From Leisingera sp. SS27 (GTDB lineage Bacteria > Pseudomonadota > Alphaproteobacteria > Rhodobacterales > Rhodobacteraceae), in the NCBI RefSeq assembly GCF_028368855.1, contig NZ_JAQNCY010000001.1, positions 310,001 through 374,000 on the forward strand: DNA of 64,000 nucleotides, read 5' to 3'. Position 1 is the stretch's first letter. The number at the start of each line of letters is the position of its first letter. Position numbers and translations under genes: made by a program. Below the pieces are notes generated by a model. It searched no databases. It was not told where the DNA came from and saw only the letters and a program-made list of their open reading frames with translations. Positions 22,614-25,996 of this stretch are shown here, in pieces.

Positions 22614-23492
22614 CTACTGATCCTGTTCTTTGATGGCATCAGCGAGCGCATCCAGAAGCGTTTTCTGCCGCGGGGTTTTCCCGAGGCTCGGCGGCCAGGT
22701 CAGCCAATAGCCGTCAATCGTGCTCATTTCGGCGGCAGGAAGACAGATCAACTGCCCGGTCAGCAGCAGATTGGCAGCCAGCGCCCTGGATCCCAGAACC
22801 ACCCCCATTCCAAGCCGGGCCGCCCGCAGCGCATGCGCCATGGAATCCACCGAAACCGGCCCGGCCTCAGGCGCCGGCTCTCCTGTTACCCGCGCCCACT
22901 CGCTCCAGCCCGGCCGTTCTCCGCGCAACTCAATCGCCGGCAGTTGGCGCCAGTTGGCTGTATGATCCGGGGCCGCCATCGGTTGAAGAACCTCATTTGC
23001 CAGCAGGACACCGTCGCGGCCTTGCCAGTTACCGCGCCCGAAACGGATGTGCAAAGCGCCATCTGCCGCTTCGAAGTCCAGCCGCTTCGGCACGGTTTCC
23101 GTGACCAGCCGAAGCTCTGGATGACTTTCAGAAAACGCCGTAAGCTTCGGCAGCAAAAGCATTTCCAGATGCGAAGGCTGAGCAGCGATCCGAAGCTCCC
23201 GAACACTGTGCCCAAACAGGTTTTCTGTTCCCTGCTCCAGCGCACGCAGGGAATCATGGACCAGCGGCAGGTAGCTTTCACCATCGACCGTCAGCGACAC
23301 ACCGCGGGCGGAGCGGATGAAAAGCTGCCGCCCCAGCCAGGATTCCAGGTTGCGGATCCGCTGGCTGACGGCGGCCTGTGTTGCCCCGAACTCTTCTGCT
23401 GCGGCAGTAAAACTGCCATGCCGGCCAGCGGCCTCAAAAACCTTGAGCCAATCAAGCGGCGGCAAGCCCTGCTTGTTCACTTTCTTAGGCAT
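22614..23492 (-). CDS. LysR family transcriptional regulator
   Basis: A 292-residue regulator with an N-terminal winged helix-turn-helix (LDWLKVFEAAGRHGSFTAAAEEFGATQAAVSQRIRNLE in style, GcvA-like) and a C-terminal effector-binding domain. It is divergent from the tmpA-like gene, 99 bases away, the usual layout for a LysR activator of that operon. The palindromic element TTAGG-N10-CCTAA overlaps its start codon and could be an autoregulatory operator. The ligand may be the phosphonate or its hydroxylated intermediate; that is inference. Confidence 0.9.
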   Translation of the reverse strand: MPKKVNKQGLPPLDWLKVFEAAGRHGSFTAAAEEFGATQAAVSQRIRNLESWLGRQLFIRSARGVSLTVDGESYLPLVHDSLRALEQGTENLFGHSVRELRIAAQPSHLEMLLLPKLTAFSESHPELRLVTETVPKRLDFEAADGALHIRFGRGNWQGRDGVLLANEVLQPMAAPDHTANWRQLPAIELRGERPGWSEWARVTGEPAPEAGPVSVDSMAHALRAARLGMGVVLGSRALAANLLLTGQLICLPAAEMSTIDGYWLTWPPSLGKTPRQKTLLDALADAIKEQDQ

Positions 23493-23504
23493 TAGAAAAC
23501 CTAA
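23485..23504. promoter_or_regulatory. candidate LysR operator (TTAGG-N10-CCTAA)
   Basis: An interrupted palindrome of 20 bases overlapping the start codon of the lysR-type gene in the lysR/tmpA divergent region. Size and place suit an autoregulatory LysR-type site; no other support. Confidence 0.35.
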
Positions 23505-23591
23505 CTCTCAAACCCCAATTTCCGTCGTTCTCTTGATGGCTCAGCATTGTTAGCAAGGCAAGCAAGAACCAGGCCAACCGGAGAGACCCTC

Positions 23592-24725
23592 ATGCCCCGT
23601 TCCGTATCCGCCGACGCATCCGGCAGCTTCCTGACACTGACTTTTGAAGACGGCTGCGAAAGCCGCTTCCATGCGATCTGGCTGCGTGACAACGCGCTGG
23701 ACCCTGAAACCCGTTCACCGGGGAACGGTCAGCGGCTGATCACCATTGGTGACATTCCAGCCGACACCAAGATCAGCACTGCGCTGGTGGAAGACGGATC
23801 TTTAACCGTCACATTCGCCCCAGAAGGAAAGACCGTGACTTTCCCGGGTGCCTGGTTGAAGGCACACGCCTATGATATTGAGCGGAGGACGGAATTCGGC
23901 CGATTGGCACCTGGCATCGAAACCTGGAACAGCAACCTGCCCGCCCCTGTATTCGACTGGGAGGAGGTGCAGTCCGACCCCAAAGTCAAACGGGACTGGC
24001 TGGAGGCGATTGCACGTTTGGGGTTCGCCAAACTGGTGAACGGCCCTGTGAGCGAAGGCGCGCTGATTGAGAATGCCGGGATGTTCGGTTTCGTCCGCGA
24101 GACGAATTACGGCAAGTATTTCGAAGTGCGCACCGAGGTAAACCCGACCAACCTCGCCTATACTGGCCTGGGCCTGCAGGCCCATACCGACAACCCCTAC
24201 CGCGACCCGGTGCCGTCGCTTCAAATCCTCTATTGCCTGGAAAACTCTGCTGAGGGTGGTGAAAGCATTGTGGTGGACGGCTTCCGTGCCGCCGAGCGTC
24301 TGAAAGCGGAAAACCCAGAGGGCTTTGCGCTACTGGCAGGCTTTCCGGCCCGGTTTGAATACAAAGGATCCGACGGTGTGCACCTGCGCTCCCGCCGCCC
24401 GATGATCGAACTGTCACCCGATGGCGAGATGATCGGGATGCGCTTCAACAACCGGTCCTCTGCCCCATTTGTCGATATCCCGTTTGACAAGATGGAAGCC
24501 TACTACGCCGCTTACCGCCGTCTGGGTGAATTCATCGACGATCCGGACATGGGCGTCTCCTTCAAGCTGGAGCCGGGGGAGAGTTTCATCGTGGATAACA
24601 CCCGCGTAATGCATGCCCGTTTGGGGTATTCCGGTTCCGGCTCCCGTTGGCTGCAGGGCTGCTACGCAGACAAGGACGGGTTGCTGTCGACGCTCAACGT
24701 GCTGAACGCGCAGCTGGAGGGCTGA
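23592..24725 (+). CDS. tmpA: 2-trimethylaminoethylphosphonate dioxygenase-like (TmpA-like)
   Basis: A 377-residue Fe(II)/2-oxoglutarate oxygenase of the gamma-butyrobetaine hydroxylase family. An N-terminal DUF971-like domain (about 1-100) precedes the TauD-type catalytic domain with iron ligands His198 and Asp200 ([11 protein letters not shown]) and His341 ([11 protein letters not shown]). The N-terminal zinc-binding cysteines of classical butyrobetaine hydroxylase are absent ([10 protein letters not shown]). The next gene is a PhnZ/TmpB-type oxygenase. This pair is known from Leisingera: TmpA hydroxylates 2-(trimethylammonio)ethylphosphonate at carbon 1. The start at 23592 has GGAGAGA upstream. 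Butyrobetaine hydroxylation is the alternative. Confidence 0.85.
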
Positions 24726-24728
24726 GAG

Positions 24729-25334
24729 ATGAGCAAGCCAGACGTCAGCCAGCTGAACCGGGACAATATCGTAGACTTCATAGGCGGCATTTTTGATCGC
24801 CGCGGCGACGAAGAATACCTGGGCGAACCAGTCACCATGGCCGAGCACATGCTGCAAGGCGCCACCATCGCTGAGCAGAACGGCCAGCCGGAAGAGATCA
24901 TCGTGGGGGCGCTCCTCCACGATATCGGCCATTTCACCAGCGAGTTCGGCACATTCTCCATGGATGACACAGAGGACCGCTATCACGAGGAAGCCGGAGC
25001 CGAAGTTCTGGAGCAGTTCTTTCCCTCGGTGATCACCGATTGCGTCCGCTACCATGTGGCGGCCAAGCGCTATCTCTGCGCCACCAAACCGGAGTATTTC
25101 AACCGTTTATCAGAGGCTTCTGTACACTCCCTGAACCTGCAGGGCGGGCCGATGAACGCTGAGGAAGTGGCCGAGTTCGAGAAAAACCCGAACCTCAAGC
25201 AGATCGTCGCAGTGCGGTATTTGGATGAGGCCGGCAAGCGGGACGACATGGACACCCCGGACTACTGGCATTTTGCACCGATGGTCCAGCGTATGGTCGA
25301 TAAGCACCTGGGTACGGCAGGTTCTGCAAAATGA
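24729..25334 (+). CDS. tmpB: HD-domain mixed-valent di-iron oxygenase (TmpB/PhnZ-like)
   Basis: A 201-residue HD-domain protein. Candidate iron ligands are His40, His64-Asp65, His86, His109 and Asp166, and the lid pair Tyr30/Glu33 (YLGEPV) is spaced as in PhnZ (Tyr24/Glu27). These features point to oxidative C-P bond cleavage rather than phosphohydrolysis. TmpB cleaves (R)-1-hydroxy-2-(trimethylammonio)ethylphosphonate to glycine betaine and phosphate. It starts three bases after the tmpA-like stop and overlaps the next gene (ATGA), so all three genes are coupled. PhnZ-like activity on 2-aminoethylphosphonate derivatives is less likely given the tmpA-like neighbour. Confidence 0.85.
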   Translation: MSKPDVSQLNRDNIVDFIGGIFDRRGDEEYLGEPVTMAEHMLQGATIAEQNGQPEEIIVGALLHDIGHFTSEFGTFSMDDTEDRYHEEAGAEVLEQFFPSVITDCVRYHVAAKRYLCATKPEYFNRLSEASVHSLNLQGGPMNAEEVAEFEKNPNLKQIVAVRYLDEAGKRDDMDTPDYWHFAPMVQRMVDKHLGTAGSAK

Positions 25335-25996
25335 GCGCGCCCGAGTACATTTTTGAGGCCAGTTCGAAACCTTCGCTGCCCTGGCACGAGGTGCCGCTGA
25401 TCCGGGCTACCGATGAAAGCGTAAAGGGCTATGGCTGCCTGGTGGATGATCCGGAGAATTTCGAGATCGAAATCGTGCAATGGCCGGCTCAGGGCTGGCG
25501 GCCGATCGACGAGGGCACCGGCGACGAGGCCGGCTGGGTCGAGGGTACCTTCCGCGGCGACTGGCGCGGTGATGTGCTCTACGGCGAGAACGAAGCGGTC
25601 AACGGCAACTATGTGCTGGGCTGGTCCACCGACCCGCAAAAGGCACAGGCGGACAAGCAGACCGCGCCGCGGGACCAGGTGCTGTTGTGGCACATGAACT
25701 ATCACCCCGACGGCGGCCAGATGTTCTATCCGCTGGACAACAAACCCTTCATCATTCCAGCGGCCTTGCCGGGGGATGATCTGAAACCGGAAAAGGTCGT
25801 GGCGTTCTGGTGTGACGGGTCAAAGGGGCTCTATATCCATCCCAATATCTGGCACGAGGGGATCTTTCCGCTGGACAACAGCCAGCGTTTCCTCGACCGG
25901 CAGGGCAAGGTGCATGCCCGTGTCAGCTGCGACATTGGCAAGGAGTTCGGCGTCTACCTGTCCTGCCCGCTTCGCGAAGCAAAGATCCAGGGTTAA
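25331..25996 (+). CDS. ureidoglycolate lyase-like cupin protein in the tmp operon
   Basis: A 221-residue cytosolic protein resembling the ureidoglycolate lyase (AllA) fold, with segments VDDPENFEIEIVQWP, YHPDGGQMFYPLD and GSKGLYIHPNIWHEGIFPL (conserved His/Glu of a cupin pocket). No other purine or allantoin catabolism gene is present, and it overlaps the tmpB-like gene, so its substrate is probably linked to the phosphonate pathway. It could act on a related phosphonate, an ester, or a shunt product. The function is unknown; the family assignment is moderately sure. A terminator follows. Confidence 0.7.
   Translation: MSAPEYIFEASSKPSLPWHEVPLIRATDESVKGYGCLVDDPENFEIEIVQWPAQGWRPIDEGTGDEAGWVEGTFRGDWRGDVLYGENEAVNGNYVLGWSTDPQKAQADKQTAPRDQVLLWHMNYHPDGGQMFYPLDNKPFIIPAALPGDDLKPEKVVAFWCDGSKGLYIHPNIWHEGIFPLDNSQRFLDRQGKVHARVSCDIGKEFGVYLSCPLREAKIQG

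Follow-up and report, generated by a model that had tools for sequence, protein, structure and literature searches.

What does the third gene of a trimethylaminoethylphosphonate (tmp) operon do? The question is raised by a locus in a 64,000-nucleotide stretch of DNA, hereafter the window, from the marine bacterium Leisingera sp. SS27 (assembly GCF_028368855.1, contig NZ_JAQNCY010000001.1, positions 310,001 to 374,000; the source genome comprises 4.8 Mb in 30 contigs), in which tmpA and tmpB are followed by a gene that we designate P3. The initial annotation had read positions 23485–25996 as a tmp catabolic locus with a LysR regulator. Its assignment of TmpA and TmpB was supported, but the reading was incomplete: 25996 is indeed a gene end, but that of a third gene (25331–25996) left unmentioned, and the LysR gene lies almost wholly outside the span. 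The features of the locus are as follows.

22614–23492, minus strand: LysR-family regulator gene, divergent to tmpA, with HTH_1 and LysR_substrate domains
23492–23504, no strand: putative LysR box, TTAG-N5-CTAA, overlapping the LysR start codon; candidate operator
23592–24725, plus strand: tmpA, predicted 2-trimethylaminoethylphosphonate 2-oxoglutarate/Fe(II) hydroxylase; 336/377 residues identical to PDB 6npb; NCBIfam equivalog NF049936, 592 bits, cut-off 400
24729–25334, plus strand: tmpB, predicted diiron oxygenase of the HD-domain type for C-P bond cleavage; identity to PDB 6npa 184/195 over the aligned residues; NCBIfam equivalog NF049941, 367 bits, cut-off 300
25331–25996, plus strand: P3, uncharacterised cupin with a predicted ureidoglycolate-lyase fold; the operon's third gene, whose start overlaps the tmpB stop over 4 nucleotides

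It is highly probable, judging from sequence, that tmpA, tmpB and P3 form a LysR-controlled operon in which TmpA and TmpB supply the phosphonate route and P3 is an accessory to aminophosphonate catabolism. Given their near-identity to the Leisingera caerulea enzymes, TmpA would hydroxylate C1 of 2-trimethylaminoethylphosphonate, and TmpB would cleave the C-P bond oxidatively, yielding glycine betaine and phosphate. The LysR protein would, from its position, control all three genes. P3 would serve aminophosphonate catabolism without being specific to TmpAB, as it also accompanies 2-aminoethylphosphonate pathways of the PhnW type and regulators resembling phn_lysR; we place it in this metabolism because of its position, some of its neighbouring regulators and its co-occurrence with phosphonate genes.

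The closest solved relative of TmpA (377 amino acids from the ATG at 23592; the listed open reading frame begins further upstream, with a TTG at 23547) was L. caerulea TmpA (6npb; 89% identity, expectation value (E) 4e-234), followed by a gamma-butyrobetaine dioxygenase (E about 9e-51). The residues H198-x-D200 and H341, presumably the Fe ligands, are present. TmpB (201 amino acids) was closest to 6npa (94% identity, E 9e-127), with PhnZ next (E about 2e-30). All six of its diiron ligands are kept (H40, H64, D65, H86, H109 and D166, corresponding to PhnZ H34, H58, D59, H80, H104 and D161), and the lid residues Tyr30 and Glu33 align with PhnZ Tyr24 and Glu27; the two lid residues stand exactly where the initial annotation had put them. 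TmpB thus carries the H...HD...H...H...D motif and YxxE lid given for TmpB-type enzymes in the available part of PMC8177086. The paired oxygenases PhnY and PhnZ, which act on 2-aminoethylphosphonate, share these ligands and the lid, but their substrate is described there as lacking N-methyl groups. The L. caerulea enzymes (TmpA, 6npb, 6npc and 6npd; TmpB, 6npa) agree with those of the window in gene pair, order, ligands and lid residues, and differ only at the species level. By sequence, TmpAB of the window is orthologous to a characterised pathway from the same genus (reviewed in PMC10574752, available in part) and is nothing new in kind; what merits following up is the third gene. Median pairwise ratios of nonsynonymous to synonymous substitution (dN/dS; simple counting method, custom script) were 0.073 for TmpA, 0.046 for TmpB and 0.046 for P3, so that P3, like TmpB, is under purifying selection.

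The association of P3 with tmpB extends beyond the window. The best 80 of at least 560 confirmed P3-profile matches in GTDB genomes were fetched, and P3 was called by script in 75 of these loci; the five without a P3 call, three of which have a tmpB call, were excluded from the counts. P3 directly adjoined tmpB in 51 of the 75 loci, with the same 4-nucleotide overlap in 41 of the 51, and lay on the far side of tmpA in one; for the other 23, the fetched stretch yielded no tmpB call. Hosts of the adjacent pair include roseobacters, a metagenome-assembled genome of the Hyphomicrobiales (L144) and Marinobacterium nitratireducens (L135), and the closest P3 records among the matches listed were from a Rhodobacteraceae metagenome-assembled genome (98%) and then Leisingera strains (97% and lower). 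In one genome (G630), TmpA and TmpB are 100% identical to the PDB chains, and a P3 gene (90.5%, no internal stop) directly follows tmpB. The available part of PMC8177086 assigns 6npa to L. caerulea, and we take G630 to be that species. P3 would then follow tmpB in L. caerulea as in the window, whereas the tmp operon is described as a two-gene operon in the part of the review PMC10574752 that was available. No report of a third tmp gene was found in the literature searched, a search that did not extend to the original 2019 tmp paper; in the available parts of PMC10590968, PMC8316502 and PMC11203657 the word "cupin" does not occur, nor does "ureidoglycolate" in the two that were searched for it.

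Co-occurrence was counted in a family sample (295 genomes; P3 at E <1e-40, the next match being at 1e-9; TmpB over its cut-off; PhnW at E <=1e-60) and a class sample (337 genomes; P3 and TmpB relatives each at E <=1e-30), which overlap in five genomes, that of the window included. P3 was present in 18 of the 295 family genomes. TmpB was found in 17 of these 18 compared with 21 of the 277 others, PhnW in 13 compared with 43, and either of the two in all 18 compared with 58. One genome (G133) whose TmpB scored 299.2 bits against the cut-off of 300 was counted as lacking TmpB; this genome carries PhnW and lacks a close P3. Since P3 adjoins tmpB in only 8 of the 18 genomes (one copy broken), linkage alone does not explain the association. 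The class sample gave a similar picture: P3 occurred in 19 of 337 genomes, with a TmpB or Phn-HD relative in 17/19 versus 57/318, PhnW in 17/19 (one, in G523, a contig-end fragment under the family cut-off) versus 52/318, and either in 19/19 versus 95/318. An HD match was present in 74 class genomes, of which only 14 passed the tmpB cut-off, and two of the remaining matches, when scanned, had Phn-HD as their best family (TIGR03276; 202.1 and 214.4 bits, cut-off 214.6). P3 was most frequent where the HD oxygenase and PhnW occur together (12/18 family and 15/29 class genomes), as against the HD oxygenase alone (5/20 and 2/45) or PhnW alone (1/38 and 2/40), and was absent from all genomes in which, at the limits applied, neither was found (0/219 and 0/223). 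Strict dependence of P3 on TmpB was ruled out by three genomes (G165, G460 and G518, the last 70% complete) that carry P3 and PhnW with no TmpB relative over the limits.

Some P3 genes apart from tmpB are flanked by regulators that also point to phosphonates. Of 18 class loci fetched, P3 was called in 16, and in 5 of these a divergent LysR gene of one cluster lies beside it; the same holds for 4 of the 23 GTDB loci without tmpB. For four LysR proteins beside a lone P3 (L043, L161, L178 and L182) the best family was phn_lysR, at 187–262 bits, the lowest score being that of a truncated call; three LysR proteins beside PhnW scored 278–323 bits. Apart from some of these regulators, none of the scanned genes around unlinked P3 genes hinted at a function. 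In a 1.6-Mb genome (L185), P3 directly follows phnW and precedes a calcineurin-like phosphoesterase gene; a Phn-HD-like gene is oriented divergently, and genes of the phnA and aldehyde-dehydrogenase clusters lie close by. The genome of the window itself has a separate cluster (G000:C12) comprising a phn_lysR-like regulator, phnW, phnA, phnY (phosphonoacetaldehyde dehydrogenase) and pbfA, whose enzymes differ from TmpAB and which is unlinked to tmpAB. At the window locus, the TTAG-N5-CTAA dyad fits the T-N11-A consensus of LysR boxes; in an alignment counted by eye, 18 of 21 genus loci carry it exactly, two differ (L213 and L227) and one lacks it (L004). A consensus promoter scan over 23400–26200 found no promoter.

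P3 (221 amino acids) matches a single Pfam family, ureidoglycolate lyase (PF04115), over residues 122–188 only. Its AlphaFold2 model had a mean predicted local distance difference test score of 88.7 and a predicted template modelling score of 0.87; the input alignment was shallow, because its 44 sequences are 73–98% identical to the query. The best Foldseek match of the model in the PDB was the ureidoglycolate lyase (AllA) structure 2bdr (E 2.8e-10, target template modelling score 0.70), with 1xsr, 1xsq and 1yqc as further matches, placing the model in the AllA cupin fold. The AllA motifs HPxGxQ and WH are kept in P3, and a P3-specific block (W51–E66), H121 and E176 are invariant in all 44 aligned sequences. 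P3 is most likely an enzyme of the AllA fold. We put at about even the chances that P3 represents a hitherto undescribed aminophosphonate-catabolic enzyme with a novel activity for this fold, one that would widen or protect the TmpAB and PhnW routes and was apparently overlooked in the L. caerulea operon. As to the reaction, ureidoglycolate lyase splits a carbinolamide, ureidoglycolate. Because this nearest fold relative acts in such a way, P3 might be a lyase or hydrolase acting on an N-substituted aminophosphonate that is hydroxylated (carbinolamine-like), and might thereby supply or remove intermediates of the TmpAB or PhnW routes; this tentative guess we regard as possible but doubtful. 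Conservation of the third gene suggests that the tmp pathway as described may be missing a step, substrate or safeguard that it shares with aminoethylphosphonate routes, and its role could be tested at once, since P3 appears to be present in the L. caerulea operon already studied.

Several observations weigh against placing P3 in aminophosphonate catabolism. The co-occurrence counts ignore phylogeny and genome size. The LysR protein of the window is not phn_lysR-like (TIGR03339, 65 bits, cut-off 341), its top NCBIfam match being GcvA at 183 bits, under the cut-off of 288; assignment of the locus to phosphonates through its own regulator was dropped for this reason. None of the scanned LysR proteins, including those adjacent to PhnW, reached the phn_lysR cut-off. 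Among the 23 callable P3 loci without tmpB in the fetched stretch, P3 lies beside a purL-type gene in six and beside a LysR gene of the phn_lysR-like cluster in four, the rest being unannotated, and the scanned neighbours of other lone P3 loci include ilvC- and lysS-type genes. Every one of the 21 genomes in the genus sample has a tmpB over the cut-off, but only 14 have an intact P3: of 15 with a match, one is broken (G633), while the remaining six comprise one with two short P3 remnants only (G639) and five without a match. As 7 of the 21 genus members retain tmpAB with P3 broken or absent, P3 is accessory and dispensable for keeping tmpAB. PhnW was found in 13 of the 14 genus genomes with intact P3 and in 3 of the 7 without (Fisher p = 0.025), which is only suggestive that P3 follows PhnW within the genus; the sole exception among the 14 is G630, in which P3 is present and no PhnW match was found.

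The same losses would suit a non-catalytic cupin, such as a ligand sensor or chaperone for phosphonate enzymes. We consider such a role rather unlikely, as the invariant His, Gln and Glu residues are those that an active site would probably need, and P3 accompanies phosphonate enzymes of different kinds, and does so without linkage too. That P3 is an ordinary ureidoglycolate lyase of purine catabolism hitch-hiking in the operon is very improbable. Its sole Pfam family, its best structural matches and the shared HPxGxQ and WH motifs favour this explanation, but P3 scored at most 44 bits against the NCBIfam AllA models (cut-offs 160–315), its sequence homology to AllA is limited to about 75 residues, it has invariant features of its own (the W51–E66 block, H121 and E176), and the AllA chains are shorter (168–175 amino acids) and only 14–19% identical in structural alignments. 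Separate weak AllA-like matches also occur alongside P3 in several genomes (for example G031, G043, G141 and G165), and P3 tracks TmpB and PhnW; the AllA scores and this association disfavour purine catabolism. Finally, it can practically be dismissed that the pair consists of a gamma-butyrobetaine hydroxylase, in place of TmpA, and an HD-domain hydrolase, in place of TmpB: TmpA did pass the gamma-butyrobetaine dioxygenase model TIGR02409 narrowly (426.9 bits, cut-off 414.75, a margin of 12 bits), which fits the earlier remark that such genes are misannotated as carnitine-biosynthesis genes, but both proteins scored far higher with the tmpA and tmpB models, and their closest solved homologues are TmpA and TmpB themselves.

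Other arrangements were seen around P3 relatives and tmp genes. Two Paraburkholderia megaplasmids (L089 and L090) carry a P3 relative (55–57%), which in L090 is placed after an annotated major facilitator superfamily (MFS) transporter gene; a gene of the same cluster precedes it in L089. A second tmp operon type, with neither P3 nor LysR, occurs at eight loci (L051, L054, L072, L077, L084, L085, L086 and L087), where an alcohol-dehydrogenase-like gene and, L054 excepted, an MFS transporter gene stand before tmpA-tmpB, and an enolase-superfamily gene resembling sugar-acid dehydratases mostly follows. These three families were scanned in L051 only, where all were under their equivalog cut-offs; the second type is possibly a larger catabolic unit. 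In L083, tmpA-tmpB follows phnW, phnA and an aldehyde dehydrogenase gene and precedes pbfA and a gene for a phosphonate-associated membrane protein; L088 has a similar setting, judged from families scanned in L083 only, with a tmpB relative and no called tmpA. A second TmpA-like oxygenase gene (31–36% identity to TmpA) directly follows tmpB in L197, L198 and L202. Both operon types are joined in one genome (G119; L038/L079), where tmpA-tmpB-P3 is followed by the enolase-superfamily gene.

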